Positions 15,468 through 23,289 of a stretch of DNA of 64,000 nucleotides are shown here, piece after piece. This DNA comes from Candidatus Omnitrophota bacterium. GTDB lineage: Bacteria; Omnitrophota; JACPQZ01. The notes under the pieces were generated by a model that was not told the DNA's origin, did no database searches, and worked only from the letters and a program-made list of their open reading frames with translations. Position 1 is the stretch's first letter. The number at the start of each line of letters is the position of its first letter. Made by a program: the position numbers and the translations under genes. The stretch is taken from positions 62,001 to 126,000 of the forward strand of contig JACPQZ010000045.1 of assembly GCA_016190205.1 (NCBI GenBank). The letters are read 5' to 3'.

Positions 15468-16571
15468 ATGGAACGGGCAATCCTGGTATTAGAATCGGGC
15501 ACCAAGCGAATCATCGATTTTAACCATCATACCATCCGCCTGCTTCGTTTCGTCCCGAAGGAGCTCCTGGCGCTTTCATTCCAGGACTTTTTCTCTCGCG
15601 ACGTAAAGGATTTCGTCTTGGAGGGGTACCTGAAGGCCCTCCACAAATCTCAATGCCGTGTGGATCAGGTCCTGATCAACCGAAAAGACGGTCCGCCCGT
15701 ACCTGTAAGCATAGAATATCAATGTCCAGATCCCAAGGGGAACGTGACGGTAATTATTTACCCCCTGTCAGACCAAAACGGCAACGGGGAATGGGATCCG
15801 CAGCAGGAGCTTACAGAGCTCCGGCAGGCATACCGGCGCCTTTCGGACTTGAACCTAACACTGAAGAAGAGGATTACACACCTGGCAGAGGTGCTCGCGC
15901 TTGCGGACGCCCGTTTCGATTCCGCGCAGGATGAGATGACAGAATCCCTCAGACAAAAGGAGGGCACGAAGAAAGAATGCCTGTCTCTCATGGCTTCGAT
16001 CATCCGCTCCGTGGAAGAGCGCGATCCTTTGTCACGCGGCCACTCAGACCGCGTGGTGGTCTTCGCCTTCGAGATTGCGCAGGCCCTCAAACGCCCGGAA
16101 AAGGAGCTGGACATCATTCACAATTACGGAGCGCTTTACGACATCGGTAAGGTGGGCATTGCGGAGGCCACGCTCACCAAACAAAACCCGCTGACCGACG
16201 AAGAAAGGCTTCTCATCACGGATCACCCTGTGATCGGAACAAGAATCTTAAAGCACATACCGTGGATGGAGCCTGGTCTTGACCTCGTCCGACACCATCA
16301 TGAGCGTTATGACGGATCCGGGTATCCCGATGGTCTCAAGGGCAAAGACATCCCGCTCCTGGCGCGTATTTTCATGGTCGCCGATGCCTTTGAGGCCATG
16401 ACCCGTGACCGCGCGTACCGCAGGCGCCTTCCGGTCTTCAAGGCTATTCAGGAACTGGAACGACTTCAGGGAGCGCAGTTTGATCCCGGCATCGTAGATA
16501 CCTTCAAAAACAAAGTCCTCTCATCTCAACCCCACCTCCTCAACGAAACGAACGACGAATCCGCAGCCTGA
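15468..16571 (+). CDS. PAS-like/HD-GYP-type protein with altered HD motif
   Basis: Protein of 367 residues. The N-terminal ~110 residues resemble a PAS fold (LLRFVPKELLALSFQDFF), followed by a coiled coil (~115-170) and an HD-GYP domain (~175-345). HD-GYP enzymes hydrolyse c-di-GMP at a two- or three-metal site. The GYP segment HHHERYDGSGYPDGL and RGHSDRV are intact, but the defining His-Asp pair reads Tyr224-Asp225 (ALYDIGKVG instead of HDIGK). Loss of this metal ligand should weaken or abolish catalysis, so it may be a c-di-GMP sensor or scaffold. Its stop codon lies inside a repeat element. Confidence 0.85.
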   Translation: MERAILVLESGTKRIIDFNHHTIRLLRFVPKELLALSFQDFFSRDVKDFVLEGYLKALHKSQCRVDQVLINRKDGPPVPVSIEYQCPDPKGNVTVIIYPLSDQNGNGEWDPQQELTELRQAYRRLSDLNLTLKKRITHLAEVLALADARFDSAQDEMTESLRQKEGTKKECLSLMASIIRSVEERDPLSRGHSDRVVVFAFEIAQALKRPEKELDIIHNYGALYDIGKVGIAEATLTKQNPLTDEERLLITDHPVIGTRILKHIPWMEPGLDLVRHHHERYDGSGYPDGLKGKDIPLLARIFMVADAFEAMTRDRAYRRRLPVFKAIQELERLQGAQFDPGIVDTFKNKVLSSQPHLLNETNDESAA

Positions 16572-16818
16572 GAAAACTTGAGACTATAGACCTGAGACCC
16601 GAGACCCAAAGTCAAAGGTACAGCTGCCCGCCGCCTTGCCAGTTTCTTGTCTCGTGTCTCTTGTCTCGTGTCTCTTGTCTCGTGTCTAAAGTCTCCTTAG
16701 CCTGAGAAGACTTGAGACTATAGACCTGAGACCCGAGACCCAAAGTCAAAGGTACTGCTGCCCGCCGCCTTGCCAGTTTCTTGTCTCGTGTCTCTTGTCT
16801 CGTGTCTAAAGTCTCCTT
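16565..16818. repeat. Tandemly duplicated heptad-repeat hairpin element (134 + 120 bp)
   Basis: Two direct copies, 16565-16698 and 16699-16818, differ by two substitutions and one 14-bp unit (two heptads). Each has a left arm of GAGAC-type units and a right arm of GTCTCGT/GTCTCTT heptads that can pair around a GCCCGCCGCC centre. The first copy contains the stop codon of the HD-GYP-like gene. This element fills most of the 340-bp gap before the glycine-cleavage operon; the rest is promoter and leader. Confidence 0.85.
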
Positions 16819-16822
16819 GCGA

Positions 16823-16911: not shown

Positions 16912-19362
16912 ATGCTTTTGTTTGAAGAATTCGTCACGCGTTTAAGCGACTTCGTTTGGGGCCCTCCCTCCATCCTCCTCCTCATTGGGACGGGAATCCT
17001 CCTTTCCTTCCGCACAGGTCTCATCCAGCTAAAAAAATTCGGTCTTGGCCTGAAGATTATTCGCGGTGACTACGATGACCCCGGGATCGCCGGCGACGTC
17101 AGCCACTATCAGGCCCTCTCCACAGCCCTGGCGGCCACGATCGGCACGGGCAATATCGTGGGCGTCGCTACGGCCATCGCGGTGGGGGGGCCAGGCGCCG
17201 TGTTTTGGATGTGGATTACAGCCCTGGTGGGAATGGCGACCAAGTATTCCTGCTGCCTCCTCGCCCTGCGTTACCGAACGACCGACCCATCGGGACACAT
17301 AAGCGGCGGGCCCATGTACTATCTGGAAAGGGGACTGGGCCTCAAGGCCCTCGGCCGGCTTTTTGCACTGTGCACGGTGGCTGCCGCCCTCGGCATCGGC
17401 AACCTGGTGCAGTCCCACTCCGCCGCCGATTACCTGCACAACACCTTCTCCATCCCGCAAGGGGTTACGAGCGTCGCCCTGGCCGTCCTCGTGGGTTTGG
17501 TTATTATCGGCGGGATCCGCCGCATCGCTCATGTGGCAAGCTTCCTGGTTCCTTTCATGTGCGCGTTTTACACCCTGGCGTGCTTGGTGGTGCTGGTACT
17601 TAACATCTCAAAGATTCCCGAGGCCCTGGGACTCATCTTTAAGCACGCCTTTACCCCTCTGGGGGCAACCGGAGGCTTTTTGGGGTCGAGCGTGCTCCTC
17701 ACCATGCGCATGGGGGTCGCGCGCGGTATCTTCTCCAACGAGGCGGGCCTGGGAAGCGCCCCCATCGCCCACGCAGCCGCCAAGACCAAAGAACCGGTCA
17801 GGGAGGGGCTCGTAGCCATGATGGGGCCTTTCATTGATACGATCCTGGTTTGCACCCTGACCGCGCTCGTCATAATCACCACCGGCGTATGGAGGGAAGG
17901 TCTGGATGGGGCCACCCTGTCCGCGCAGGCCTTCCACAGAGGACTGGGGATTTGGGGAGAGCGGGGAGTGGCCTTGAGCCTGCTGCTCTTCGTCTACACC
18001 ACGATCATAGGCTGGTTTTACTACGGCGACCGCGCACTGTATTATCTCACGGGGCCCCGGTACGCAACCGCCTACAAATGGCTCTGGACTTCGCTCGTGG
18101 CCGTCGGGGCCGTAGTCCAACTCAAGACGGTCTGGAATCTGGCCGACATTGCGAACGGGTTTATGGCCTTCCCCAATTTGGTGGGCCTCATCGGCCTGTC
18201 CGGTGTGGTCTCAAAGTCGACGCGGGATTATTTTGAACGCGTCAAGCGCGTCACGCCCCTGGTAGGCACGCACGAGCGCCTCGGGGGCCGCATGACGGAC
18301 TTCCATGGCTGGTACCTTCCGCTTCAGTACTCGGGTATCCTGGAAGAGCACCGGGCCGTCCGGCAGGTGGCGGGGCTCTTCGACGCAAGCCACCTCGCCA
18401 AGATCCATATCACAGGAGAAGACGCGCACAGCTTTGTCCAGAAACTCGTGGTCTCTGATTTATCCCGCATGGGAAGGGGAGATATCCTGTATACCCTGAT
18501 CACAAATGAGAAGGGTGGCGTGCTTGACGATATCCTGGTTTATATGCATTCTCACCGTCATTATTTCTTGGTGACGAATGCGGTGCAAAGCGCAAAGGTC
18601 ATTCCCTGGCTTCAAAAGCACCGTTTTCCGAACACCCAAATCCGAGACGCGACCCAGGCACTAGGCATGCTGGCCCTCCAGGGGCCGCGGGCCGTTGAGT
18701 TCCTTGAGCCGTATCTTAAGGCCTCTTACAAAAGGTTAAAACTCTATACCTTTGAACAGGGCACTTTTCAGAACAAGATCCCCGTCCTGGTCTCGCGGAC
18801 CGGCTACACCGGCGAGGACGGATTTGAGCTCATCCCTCCGGCAGGTAAATCGGCTTGGGTTTGGAATACGCTCTCGAATACCTTATTGAGCGACGGGACC
18901 CCGCTCGTGCCCTGCGGGTTGGGAGCCCGGGATACTTTACGGCTTGAGGCCGGAAATCTCTTGTCAGGCCAGGACTTTGACGAACGCAATAATCCCTTCG
19001 AGATCGGCCTAGGAAAACTTGTGCACTTCGAAAAACCCTACTTTCTGGGCAGGCCTGCCTTGGCCCGCCTTCATGCCCGGGAACCCCGCACGAGGCTTGC
19101 CGCCTTCACCCTGAAGGGGCGGGCCATCCCGAGATCCGGAAACCCTGTGTTCGGCGCGGGCGCAAGGGCAGGGGAGGTCACCAGCGGATCCTTCGCCCCG
19201 ACGCTTGGCTACACCATCGGCCTCGCCCATATCGATTCATCTTTCTCCGCGCCGGGAACAGAGATCGAGATTGAAACGCGCGGCCAGCGCTTTCCCGGAG
19301 TCGTCACTTCCAAACCCTTTTATCGTCGCAGGGCCCTGACCAGCCTTAAAGGAGCGCATTAA
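16912..19362 (+). CDS. Sodium:alanine/glycine symporter fused to aminomethyltransferase GcvT
   Basis: One uninterrupted 816-residue frame. Residues 1-~442 are an AGCS-family sodium:amino-acid symporter with many membrane segments and the signatures GGPMYYLERGLG and RGIFSNEAGLGSAPIAHAA. From ~445 the sequence is a complete GcvT: TPLVGTHERLGGRM at its start, the catalytic-type Asp in GVLDDILVY, and the folate-site GARDTLRLEAG. GcvT releases ammonia and forms methylene-THF from aminomethyl-lipoyl GcvH. There is no stop codon or linker between the halves, and the GcvT part would be cytoplasmic after the last helix. gcvH follows two bases later with AAAGGAG. Coupling of glycine uptake to cleavage is inferred. 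Confidence 0.9.
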   Translation: MLLFEEFVTRLSDFVWGPPSILLLIGTGILLSFRTGLIQLKKFGLGLKIIRGDYDDPGIAGDVSHYQALSTALAATIGTGNIVGVATAIAVGGPGAVFWMWITALVGMATKYSCCLLALRYRTTDPSGHISGGPMYYLERGLGLKALGRLFALCTVAAALGIGNLVQSHSAADYLHNTFSIPQGVTSVALAVLVGLVIIGGIRRIAHVASFLVPFMCAFYTLACLVVLVLNISKIPEALGLIFKHAFTPLGATGGFLGSSVLLTMRMGVARGIFSNEAGLGSAPIAHAAAKTKEPVREGLVAMMGPFIDTILVCTLTALVIITTGVWREGLDGATLSAQAFHRGLGIWGERGVALSLLLFVYTTIIGWFYYGDRALYYLTGPRYATAYKWLWTSLVAVGAVVQLKTVWNLADIANGFMAFPNLVGLIGLSGVVSKSTRDYFERVKRVTPLVGTHERLGGRMTDFHGWYLPLQYSGILEEHRAVRQVAGLFDASHLAKIHITGEDAHSFVQKLVVSDLSRMGRGDILYTLITNEKGGVLDDILVYMHSHRHYFLVTNAVQSAKVIPWLQKHRFPNTQIRDATQALGMLALQGPRAVEFLEPYLKASYKRLKLYTFEQGTFQNKIPVLVSRTGYTGEDGFELIPPAGKSAWVWNTLSNTLLSDGTPLVPCGLGARDTLRLEAGNLLSGQDFDERNNPFEIGLGKLVHFEKPYFLGRPALARLHAREPRTRLAAFTLKGRAIPRSGNPVFGAGARAGEVTSGSFAPTLGYTIGLAHIDSSFSAPGTEIEIETRGQRFPGVVTSKPFYRRRALTSLKGAH

Positions 19363-19364
19363 CT

Positions 19365-19751
19365 ATGGAATTTCCCCATGATTTGAAATACACCTCAACG
19401 CATGAATGGATACGCATGGACGGAAACCGCGCCCGCGTGGGTGTCACGAGCTTTGCCGCGCAGGAGCTTTCGGACGTCGTATACGTGGATCTGCCCGAAG
19501 TCGGGAAGGAGGTCCAGGCGGGTCAGGAAGTTTCCGTGGTGGAGTCTGTGAAAGCGGCTTCATCGATCTATGCCCCCCTCGCAGGCAGGGTAGCAGACGT
19601 CAACACAGCCCTCAAATCAAACCCGGCCCTCTTGAACGAGTCCTGTTATCAAGAGGGATGGATTTTTGAACTTGAGCTTACACCCGGCGCCCCGGCGCAG
19701 GGACTTCTCACTTCGAAGGAATACTTAAAAACGCTCGAAGGGGAAAAATAA
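19365..19751 (+). CDS. gcvH: Glycine cleavage system H protein
   Basis: Lipoyl carrier protein of 128 residues that shuttles the aminomethyl group from P to T protein. The lipoylated Lys is K63 in VVESVKAASSIYAP, and the N-terminal YTSTHEWIR and C-terminal GWIFELEL strands are typical. The start follows the fused gcvT by 2 bp. Length is normal. Confidence 0.95.
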   Translation: MEFPHDLKYTSTHEWIRMDGNRARVGVTSFAAQELSDVVYVDLPEVGKEVQAGQEVSVVESVKAASSIYAPLAGRVADVNTALKSNPALLNESCYQEGWIFELELTPGAPAQGLLTSKEYLKTLEGEK

Positions 19752-19754
19752 GAA

Positions 19755-21098
19755 ATGCCTTACGTTTCCCACACTCCTCAAGACCAGGACGCCATGTGCG
19801 CGGCCATTGGCGTGAGAGATCCCCGCGACCTTTTTCGGGAGATACCTGATGCCGTGCGCTTAAGCCGGATCAATCTTCCCGGCGGCCTTACAGAACTGGA
19901 ACTTTCGCGCCGGATGCGTGAGCTCGCCGCGAAGACAGAAGGAACCCACTCATTTGACTCGTACTTGGGCGCCGGCTCCTATGAGCACTTCATCCCCTCC
20001 GTAGTGAGCGCGATCGTGTCGAGGGGAGAATTTGAAACTGCCTACACCCCGTATCAGGCCGAGGCCAGCCAGGGGACCCTGCAATGGATATTCGAATTCC
20101 AGTCCCTCATCGCCAAGCTCACAGGCATGGACGTGGCCAATGCCTCTCATTATGACGGGGCCAGCGCCCTCGCTGAAGGGGCCATGCTCGCAACCTTTGC
20201 CCGAAAAAGACCCCGCATCCTCATTTCGGAAACAGTCCACCCCGAATACCGCCGCGTGGTCCGGACCTATCTAAGTGGACTTGATGTCGAGCTCGTGGAG
20301 ATTCCGATGCTCGCGGGGGGCCGGCCAGACTGGGAGCAGGCAGAGAGGCTCCTGGATGAGCGCGTGAACGCCCTGCTCGTCTCAAGCCCCAACTTTTTTG
20401 GACAACTGGAGGATATCGAGGTCATTGCGCCTCGCGTGCACAAGGCCGGCGCGCTTCTCGTCGAATCGTCAAACCCCATTGCACTTGCCCTGGTCAAAAC
20501 CCCAGGCGAGCACGGGGCGGATGTGAGCGTCGGAGAGGCGCAGCCCCTGGGGCTGGCCCCCGCCTGGGGAGGACCGTATTGCGGCTGGTTCGCGGCACGG
20601 CAGGAACTCACGAGGCGGCTTCCAGGCCGCCTGGTGAGTGAAACCCGCGACCGAAACGGTCGCAAGGCCTATGTCCTCACGCTGCAGACGCGCGAGCAGC
20701 ACATTCGGAGGGAGAAGGCCACCTCCAATATCTGCACCAATCAAGGGCTGTGCGCCCTGACCGCCACTGTTACCCTGGCTTGTCTGGGGCCGGAGGGTCT
20801 CAAGGAAATGGCAGAATTAAACACCTCTTTGAGCCACTACGCATATGACCGGCTTCTTGAAATTGACGGCGTAACGCCCTTCACAAGCGGCCCTTTTTTC
20901 AACGAGTTTGCCGTCCGATTTCCAAAGACCACACAAGCGATCAACCTGAAGCTGCTTAAAAAGGGGATCATAGGCGGTTTTGACCTGGGCAGGATACGAA
21001 AAGATTGGGCCCATGCCTGCCTTTTCGCAGTGACAGAGACAAAGACAGAAGAAAAAATCGACCGCCTCGTTCAGGAGATCAAGGCGTGTCTCATCTGA
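19755..21098 (+). CDS. gcvPA: Glycine dehydrogenase (decarboxylating) subunit 1
   Basis: Alpha half of the split P protein, 447 residues. With GcvPB it decarboxylates glycine and loads the methylamine group on GcvH. Typical stretches are LGAGSYEHFIPSVV near 71, ETAYTPYQAEASQGTLQ near 95, and GGPYCGWFAAR near 273. The start at 19755 is three bases after the gcvH stop. It overlaps gcvPB by 13 bp. Confidence 0.95.
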   Translation: MPYVSHTPQDQDAMCAAIGVRDPRDLFREIPDAVRLSRINLPGGLTELELSRRMRELAAKTEGTHSFDSYLGAGSYEHFIPSVVSAIVSRGEFETAYTPYQAEASQGTLQWIFEFQSLIAKLTGMDVANASHYDGASALAEGAMLATFARKRPRILISETVHPEYRRVVRTYLSGLDVELVEIPMLAGGRPDWEQAERLLDERVNALLVSSPNFFGQLEDIEVIAPRVHKAGALLVESSNPIALALVKTPGEHGADVSVGEAQPLGLAPAWGGPYCGWFAARQELTRRLPGRLVSETRDRNGRKAYVLTLQTREQHIRREKATSNICTNQGLCALTATVTLACLGPEGLKEMAELNTSLSHYAYDRLLEIDGVTPFTSGPFFNEFAVRFPKTTQAINLKLLKKGIIGGFDLGRIRKDWAHACLFAVTETKTEEKIDRLVQEIKACLI

Positions 21099-22603
21099 CG
21101 CGCGAGGAACCCACCTTAGCGGAGCTCTCACGTCCGAAAAAGCGCGCGGTTAAGTTTCCACGCGCCGCTTGCGCCAAAGACAGCCAGCCATTGATTCCCG
21201 CACAATACCTTCGCAAGACGCGTCCTCGACTTCCGGAATTGAGCGAACTCGACGTCGTCAGGCATTTTACGCGTCTCTCCAAGCTCAATTTCTCCATCGA
21301 TACCCATTTCTACCCGCTGGGATCTTGTACGATGAAATACAACCCCAAGAGAAATGACACGCTCTCGACCCTCCAGCCCTTTCTATGGGCGCATCCCGCC
21401 CAGCCGGAGGAGCTCTCCCAGGGCATCCTGGAGATCCTGTACGAACTGGAGCAGGCCCTGGTCGAGATCTGCGGGGTGCGCCGCTTCAGTTTGCAGCCGG
21501 CGGCAGGGGCCCAGGCGGAATTCACCGGCCTCATGATCGTCAGGGCCTGGCATCGTGACCACGGAAACGATAAAAAGATCGTGCTGGTGCCCGACACGAG
21601 CCATGGCACCAACCCTGCCAGTGCAGCGCTCGTAGGCTACCAGGTGCAAACGGTCAAGAGCGATGAGAGGGGCCTCGTGGACCTGGGTGATCTCGAAAGT
21701 CACTTGGGACCGCGAGTGGCTTGTCTGATGCTCACGAACCCCAACACACTCGGCCGCTTCGAGGTCCACATCCAAAAGATCGCGAAGATGATCCATATGG
21801 TAGGGGGGCTCCTCTATTACGACGGCGCCAATTTAAATCCCCTCCTCGGCACGGCTCGGCCGGGCGACATGGGATTCGACATCGTGCACCTTAACCTCCA
21901 CAAGACCTTCTCGACACCCCACGGGGGAGGAGGGCCGGGCGCAGGTCCCATCGGTGTCGCAGACCGGCTCGTGCCCTATTTACCGGCTCCCTTGATAGGC
22001 CGCGACGGGGGGTGTTATTTTCTGGAGCCGGCCCACCCCAAATCCATTGGGCGGGTCCACGCCTTTTACGGCAACGCCAACATCCTCATCAAGGCATTCA
22101 TCTACATCAAGACCCTGGGCGCCGAAGGCCTCAAACGCGTCGGTGAGGCCTCTGTCCTCAACGCGAATTATCTCCTCACACGACTTGAAAAAATCTTCCA
22201 CGTGCCCTATCCGGGGAGGTGCATGCATGAGTTTGTGGTCTCGACCCTCAAAGAGAATCCCCATGGGATCCGAACCTTGGATGTCGCGAAGCGCCTCCTC
22301 GATTTCGGATTCCACTCACCCACCATCTACTTTCCCATCAACGTCAAGGAGGCGATGATGATCGAACCCACCGAAACAGAGTCGCGCGAGACCCTGGACC
22401 ATTTCGTCGAAACCCTTGAGACAATCGCGGATGAGGCCCGCCACCACCCCGAGCGACTGCGGCAGAGCCCGCACACGCTCGCGGTCAGCCGCCCCGACGA
22501 AGTGGCGGCCGCCCGCACACCTAAACTCGTGTGGGACGAACCCCCTTTAGCCTCACCAGACAAAAGCCCCGAGGGAATACTCGCATTGAAATCGCAGCGC
22601 TAG
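21086..22603 (+). CDS. gcvPB: Glycine dehydrogenase (decarboxylating) subunit 2
   Basis: Beta, PLP-carrying half of the P protein, 505 residues. GTG 21086 is preceded by AGGAG at 21073-21077; the longer upstream frame overlaps gcvPA deeply and is rejected. The PLP Lys is K273 in NLHKTFSTPHGGGGPG, and FYPLGSCTMKYNP and DTSHGTNPASA are typical. The split P protein with separate PA and PB is the form common in anaerobes and thermophiles. A slightly long C-terminal tail overlaps the lipoate ligase-like gene. Confidence 0.95.
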   Translation: MSHLTREEPTLAELSRPKKRAVKFPRAACAKDSQPLIPAQYLRKTRPRLPELSELDVVRHFTRLSKLNFSIDTHFYPLGSCTMKYNPKRNDTLSTLQPFLWAHPAQPEELSQGILEILYELEQALVEICGVRRFSLQPAAGAQAEFTGLMIVRAWHRDHGNDKKIVLVPDTSHGTNPASAALVGYQVQTVKSDERGLVDLGDLESHLGPRVACLMLTNPNTLGRFEVHIQKIAKMIHMVGGLLYYDGANLNPLLGTARPGDMGFDIVHLNLHKTFSTPHGGGGPGAGPIGVADRLVPYLPAPLIGRDGGCYFLEPAHPKSIGRVHAFYGNANILIKAFIYIKTLGAEGLKRVGEASVLNANYLLTRLEKIFHVPYPGRCMHEFVVSTLKENPHGIRTLDVAKRLLDFGFHSPTIYFPINVKEAMMIEPTETESRETLDHFVETLETIADEARHHPERLRQSPHTLAVSRPDEVAAARTPKLVWDEPPLASPDKSPEGILALKSQR

Positions 22604-23289
22604 GATGGGTTGACGCAGCCGCGCGCATGCAAGAAGATTGGTTCGAACTCCTGAAGGCTCGGGAGACCGCTTCTTACCCGCCCAAACTGCTTTTTTACCG
22701 TTTCCGCGGGCCCGTTATGACCATCGGGCGTCATACCCATAAAGAAGAGGTGTACCGTTCCCACGAAGGTTCCCGCTTGAAAGAGCGCACCGTCCGCCGC
22801 GCCACGGGAGGGGGGGCCATCTTCCATGCCGGGGGGATGTGCTACTCATGGATCAGCAGGGGAAAGACCACCCGCTCCGGCCGAAACGAGTGCGTGTACT
22901 GGCTTCGAGACATGTTGCTTGCAACGCTCGAGCCGCTGGGAATCTTGGGCAAGACCCGAGACCCGAGACCCGAGACCCGAGCAAGAACCCTGGGCTCCTG
23001 GTGCGCCTTCGAGGAAGCCGAAACAGATCTAATCATCGGACACAAAAAGCTGGGGGGCATGGCCCAGCGCTTATTTAAGGACGCCATTCTCATCGAGGGT
23101 TATCTGACCCTGCGCCGCCGCGAAACTATCTGGATGGAACGCATCGCCGCCCGCGGGATCCTTGAAAAACACAGCGCGCGTCCAGTATCCTTGGAAGAAC
23201 TTGCTGGAAGACCAGTCCATTACGACGAAATCGTCAGCCGATTCATGCACATATCCCATGACTTCCGAACCCGATCTTGCCCGGCGTAA
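22531..23289 (+). CDS. Lipoate-protein ligase/octanoyltransferase (LplA/LipM) family protein
   Basis: BPL/LplA-fold protein that should attach lipoate or octanoate to GcvH. RRATGGGAIFHAGG and GHKKLGGMAQRLFKDAILIEGYL are family motifs. A Cys in LGSWCAFEEAETD lies where LipM-type octanoyltransferases have their acyl-binding Cys. The start is uncertain: GTG 22531 has no clear ribosome-binding site and overlaps gcvPB by 73 bp, ATG 22627 would cut the first strand, and an ATT at 22585 has GAGGGA in front. Four exact 7-bp repeats sit inside the gene (22952-22979), encoding the KTRDPRPETRART stretch. Confidence 0.8.
   Translation: MGRTPFSLTRQKPRGNTRIEIAALGWVDAAARMQEDWFELLKARETASYPPKLLFYRFRGPVMTIGRHTHKEEVYRSHEGSRLKERTVRRATGGGAIFHAGGMCYSWISRGKTTRSGRNECVYWLRDMLLATLEPLGILGKTRDPRPETRARTLGSWCAFEEAETDLIIGHKKLGGMAQRLFKDAILIEGYLTLRRRETIWMERIAARGILEKHSARPVSLEELAGRPVHYDEIVSRFMHISHDFRTRSCPA
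22952..22979 (+). repeat. Four exact copies of AGACCCG inside a coding gene
   Basis: Perfect 7-bp tandem repeat, 28 bp, within the lipoate-ligase-family gene and just before its conserved Cys segment. Because 7 is not a multiple of 3, gain or loss of one unit shifts the frame. The same GAGACCC words occur in the element at 16565-16818. Confidence 0.85.

Follow-up and report, generated by a model that had tools for sequence, protein, structure and literature searches.

Does the gene at the head of a glycine-cleavage operon in Candidatus Omnitrophota encode one protein in which a sodium:alanine/glycine symporter (AGCS) runs into an aminomethyltransferase (GcvT, the T-protein), and if so, what might such a joining mean for the cell? 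The window, the whole stretch of 64,000 nucleotides that we analysed, belongs to a MAG whose 76 contigs total 1.65 Mb, with 92.8% completeness and 0.59% contamination. On its forward strand, positions 16912–19362 form one frame of 816 codons that opens with ATG, closes with TAA and holds no internal stops. The original prediction had placed symporter and GcvT in one frame without stop or linker, and the ORF analysis, Pfam and NCBIfam agree with it. Searching the whole genome recovered the same 816-aa frame and a single match to each family, both within the fused ORF; no second AGCS and no second GcvT were detected in the 92.8% complete MAG.

Two complete domains leading a gcv operon

The AGCS half comprises residues 1–445 (16912–18246, forward strand). 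Pfam Na_Ala_symp (PF01235) covers residues 60–446 (E = 1.6e-141, 472.6 bits), and the agcS profile TIGR00835 matches residues 16–440 over its full length (1–424 of 424) with 498 bits, above the curated cut-off of 272.65, placing this half in the AGCS family. The AgcS structure 6cse is matched with E = 1.8e-116; this protein, MmAgcS, resembles residues 1–445 over the whole profile and shares 47% identity in the structural alignment. Of 84 columns that are at least 95% conserved in relatives, 83 are retained. The fold is of the LeuT type seen in 6cse (Foldseek target TM-score 0.93, rmsd 2.2), with 11 transmembrane segments and the family residues conserved, again as expected of a member.

The GcvT half, residues 446–816 (18247–19359, forward strand), is likewise complete. 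GCV_T spans residues 452–701 (E = 2.2e-79) and GCV_T_C residues 728–804 (E = 7.1e-21), so that the two domains together cover the whole length, and both equivalog cut-offs are exceeded: NF001567/PRK00389 matches residues 447–807 over profile positions 5–356 of 359 (384.4 bits, cut-off 300), and TIGR00528 scores 309.9 bits (cut-off 235.85). Residues 447–807 thus resemble T-proteins (PDB 1woo, 1yx2, 3a8i) over nearly the whole profile, and Foldseek against T-protein structures returned a target TM-score of 0.95. The active-site residues are kept, including the motifs YTGEDGFE and GLGARD..R and D539, which aligns with D97 of E. coli GcvT, the residue changed in PDB 3a8k (mutant naming from the PDB title). 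Of the 52 columns in which relatives show conservation of 95% or more, 49 are retained; the other three are altered from G to A, V to T and D to V. What sets this half apart from a free-standing soluble GcvT is its N-terminus: it is fused in frame to the AGCS half and has no start codon of its own, the C-terminal helix of the symporter standing in place of a free end.

The prediction also held that the fusion heads a gcv operon, and the downstream genes, all on the forward strand, bear this out. The start of gcvH (lipoyl carrier H-protein, 19365–19751, preceded by AAAGGAG) lies 2 bases past the stop codon of the fused ORF, and gcvPA (glycine dehydrogenase subunit 1, 19755–21098) and gcvPB (subunit 2, 21095–22603) follow, all three identified by Pfam and NCBIfam. 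Finding gcvH, gcvPA and gcvPB directly after the fused half further supports its assignment as GcvT. The last gene, at 22531–23289 with an uncertain start, is lipoate-protein-ligase-like (LplA-B_cat, E = 1.4e-17; under the NCBIfam equivalog cut-off), and its product probably lipoylates GcvH. Elsewhere the genome encodes lipoamide dehydrogenase, SHMT and formate-THF ligase (FTHFS); if the fused T-protein works, the cell would thus have a complete glycine cleavage system to supply its one-carbon metabolism. AGCS genes under glycine control are documented (PMC5829553), and aminomethyltransferase and symporter genes following glycine riboswitches have both been analysed (PMC6944388); a search for a glycine riboswitch upstream of the fused ORF found none.

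Repeats lie around the operon. Dispersed heptamers (GAGACCC and variants) occur at 16560–16820 and 22951–22983, the second run being inside the lipoate-ligase-like ORF. Near-matches to GAGACCCGAGAC number 27 in the window against 6.9 expected, and a genome-wide count gave 12 exact copies of GAGACCCGAGACCC, its reversed control giving 0. Two tandem repeat copies of about 134 bp upstream of the fused ORF give a strong hairpin (z = -3.2).

The joint and the possibility of two genes

The two families meet at residues 440–450 (YFERVKRVTPL, 18229–18261, forward strand), where the AGCS tail YFERVK (440–445) is followed in the same frame, after two residues, by the GcvT motif TPL (448–450); the junction peptide is RDYFERVKRVTPLVGTHERLGG, and a 9-bp near-repeat, CGCGTCAAG/CGCGTCACG, lies at 18238–18255. 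AGCS relatives end 3 to >8 residues past Y440 (YFERLKKG, YMIRVKSSGK and YIERMKK are examples of their tails), whereas the fusion continues for 371 residues as GcvT. GcvT proteins for their part begin 3 to about 20 residues ahead of TPL. Scored against a profile built from 107 AGCS tails, residues 441–446 (FERVKR) reach 7.5 bits, a value equalled or exceeded by 0.09% of random six-residue stretches; the median of relatives is 7.9. Judged by sequence, then, AGCS-type residues extend to K445 and GcvT-type residues begin by T448, in one frame. The joint is not a product of chance: each domain is whole, the two share a frame, and they abut at their family boundaries.

Might the organism nevertheless have two genes, overlapping or abutting, that one wrong base in the consensus has joined? 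The sequence is known from a MAG consensus only, and agcS and gcvT are separate in all relatives examined. A simple missed stop, however, could not conceal two genes: no ATG, GTG or TTG occurs in frame from residue 433 to the TPL motif at 448, the next start being M461 within the GcvT domain, so that a substitution alone would leave gcvT without a usable start. An indel could do more. With one T missed in the TTTT at 18231–18234, agcS would end ...RDYF* at a TGA, and GTG 18203 could serve gcvT as a start in the +1 frame. But that version requires a 34-bp overlap of the two genes and a GTG start that lacks an upstream Shine-Dalgarno sequence, and the AGCS-like stretch E442–K445 would have to be chance. 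For errors of the Illumina type a T4 run is also short. Either side of the joint has similar composition and codon usage, and the metabolic genes nearby are intact. We consider a consensus error distinctly unlikely.

A TAA flagged within the FTHFS match was entertained as a sign of base errors and rejected, as it lies outside an intact 501-aa ORF. This short formate-THF ligase lies downstream of an mnmE-like ORF and is directly followed, within the region L193:1519-3644, by an ORF that resembles a formimino-THF cyclodeaminase domain protein when its translation is read by eye.

A fused frame might also yield a separate, soluble GcvT from an internal start, besides or in place of the fusion. 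GTG 18205 and ATG 18292 are in frame and could serve, but 18101–18330 contains no Shine-Dalgarno-like motif, and starting at ATG 18292 would remove the conserved TPL...H segment. The carrier would in any case stay fused, for no stop follows the AGCS half. To this reading we give very little credence.

A single fused gene is the best explanation, which rests on one MAG, known as a consensus sequence, from the only member of its class in the searched set.

Separate genes in relatives

Among the matches listed from 384 genomes of the same phylum the AGCS–GcvT fusion was absent, and where agcS and gcvT were both listed for one genome they lay on different contigs. None was found in two other phyla (395 and 387 genomes), where junction queries matched the GcvT side only, nor in 201 Halomonadaceae genomes, nor among the inspected plasmid matches, and the junction query had no match in viral contigs. 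The best matches of a GTDB r220 scan held no fusion either; the loci among them that spanned both halves were from Halomonadaceae only and had two ORFs each. Long open frames (800–960) in Halomonadaceae were taken up as candidate further fusions and rejected, since in all 20 loci read stops lay between agcS and gcvT. No further genome among those searched shares the transporter–GcvT architecture, which leaves it without a known fusion family. We found no description of this or a similar fusion in the open-licence literature.

Separate genes in all relatives had been named in advance as an observation that would refute the fusion. Every relative seen does have two genes, but all of them are related at the level of the phylum or more distantly, so their separate genes do not refute a lineage-specific fusion.

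Neighbouring agcS and gcvT genes are nonetheless known from elsewhere. In Halomonadaceae (loci L056–L135) agcS stands directly upstream of gcvT, as in the fusion, but the genes are separate, with 56–186 bp separating the stop of agcS from the TPL codon where the fusion has neither stop nor spacer, and the adjacent gcvH-gcvP is divergent. Roseobacter plasmids (loci L151–L154) carry lpdA-lipA-agcS-gcvT-gcvH-gcvP, like the fusion in having agcS upstream of gcvT with gcvH and gcvP alongside, but again with agcS and gcvT as separate genes; a universal-stress-protein gene sometimes lies between the two. The prediction that symporter genes occur near gcv genes while no protein so arranged has been described thus stands, as we found no equivalent described or sequenced: the neighbourhood is known, and the single-chain architecture is new within the genomes and literature searched.

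In a tree, the AGCS half joins its counterparts from two genomes of the same phylum (support 94), apart from a gcv-linked proteobacterial clade (support 99). Because the fusion's AGCS and those of Halomonadaceae and roseobacters thus fall in separate clades, the association of AGCS with gcv genes arose more than once, independently. Derivation of the AGCS half from a proteobacterial agcS-gcvT cassette was rejected on the same grouping. The branch leading to the AGCS half measures 0.9 changes per site, while its two nearest relatives have branches of about 0.3, and this half may have evolved faster since the fusion. Taken with the three altered GcvT columns, the long branch allows for relaxed or altered function.

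GcvT-type domains have partners in other enzymes too. In sarcosine oxidase alpha, dimethylglycine dehydrogenase/oxidase and TMAO demethylase, GCV_T/GCV_T_C form the C-terminal half and pass C1 units to THF, which indicates that the N-terminus of GCV_T tolerates partners. In those enzymes the C1 unit is made by the partner, a soluble oxidoreductase, whereas here the partner is a membrane transporter.

A probable membrane-anchored T-protein and glycine cleavage

We modelled the protein with AlphaFold2 from an alignment of the fusion with its separate relatives. The model (mean pLDDT 89.8, pTM 0.72) shows two well-folded domains and one connecting helix; helix 430–446 reaches the joint and GcvT runs from about residue 451, the placement of the domains relative to each other not being fixed by the model. 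The 11 transmembrane segments are predicted to run N-out, C-in. Lysines and arginines number 18 in inside loops against 5 in outside loops, and by the positive-inside rule this alternation puts the C-terminus, hence GcvT, in the cytoplasm. The reading we favour, and hold to be rather probable, is of one membrane protein: an 11-helix Na+-coupled AGCS importer whose cytoplasmic C-terminal helix runs straight into an intact GcvT. Its most likely origin is a pair of adjacent agcS and gcvT genes, within a gcv operon, from which the stop of the first, the start of the second and the spacer between them were lost.

AGCS carriers transport alanine or glycine. The operon context suggests glycine as the substrate here, and alanine is also possible: the two nearest AGCS relatives in the phylum are not beside gcv genes, and by their translations, read by eye, one adjoins an ornithine-cyclodeaminase/alanine-dehydrogenase-like gene and the other sits in an unrelated cluster. 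Within the glycine cleavage system, free glycine is taken by the P-protein (GcvP). GcvT does not act on glycine; its substrates are the aminomethyl-lipoyl arm of GcvH and tetrahydrofolate (compare PMC7733448). The complex is usually regarded as loosely associated.

Produced as one chain, the protein would work as follows. The importer half would take up glycine and/or alanine with Na+, as its family does. Soluble GcvPA/PB, whose genes are present, would decarboxylate glycine and load the aminomethyl group onto lipoyl-GcvH by the known chemistry. GcvH would then dock on the membrane-anchored T domain, which, to judge from its conserved residues and fold, would transfer the C1 unit to THF as methylene-THF and free ammonia. 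The tether would hold T to importer at 1:1 and probably secure some of the glycine-cleavage complex to the membrane.

The prediction had gone further, proposing that a tethered GcvT places glycine cleavage where its substrate enters. This survives in part. The T step would be placed there, but since glycine binds GcvP and GcvT does not bind free glycine, the tether by itself does not bring glycine cleavage to the point of entry; at most it would nucleate the complex. A fused GcvT might recruit GcvH and GcvP into a metabolon that turns imported glycine into methylene-THF, CO2 and ammonia at entry, or carrier activity might be tied to the state of the T-protein; we put this forward tentatively, as a doubtful extension of the fusion. 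The benefit of tethering GcvT rather than GcvP is not obvious, and the choice of subunit instead speaks for a serious rival: that the fusion is real and translated yet a neutral accident, its domains independent and conferring no metabolon or coupling benefit, or its chain cut after translation. The fusion is found in a single lineage, it has no linker or extra interaction domain, and agcS and gcvT were probably adjacent beforehand, all as neutrality would have it. Yet both halves have been kept intact despite considerable divergence of AGCS, and both are single-copy, so that the cell tolerates its enzyme at 1:1 on a membrane carrier. On balance we think neutrality unlikely.

AGCS and GcvT are common proteins of well-known families. 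Their union provides a natural experiment on whether it makes a difference that an importer is physically linked to the enzymes which break down its substrate, and on the subunit around which the glycine-cleavage complex is organised. Provided that the frame is correct, this cell, in which no other T-protein was detected, must manage its glycine cleavage with a T-protein held at the membrane.
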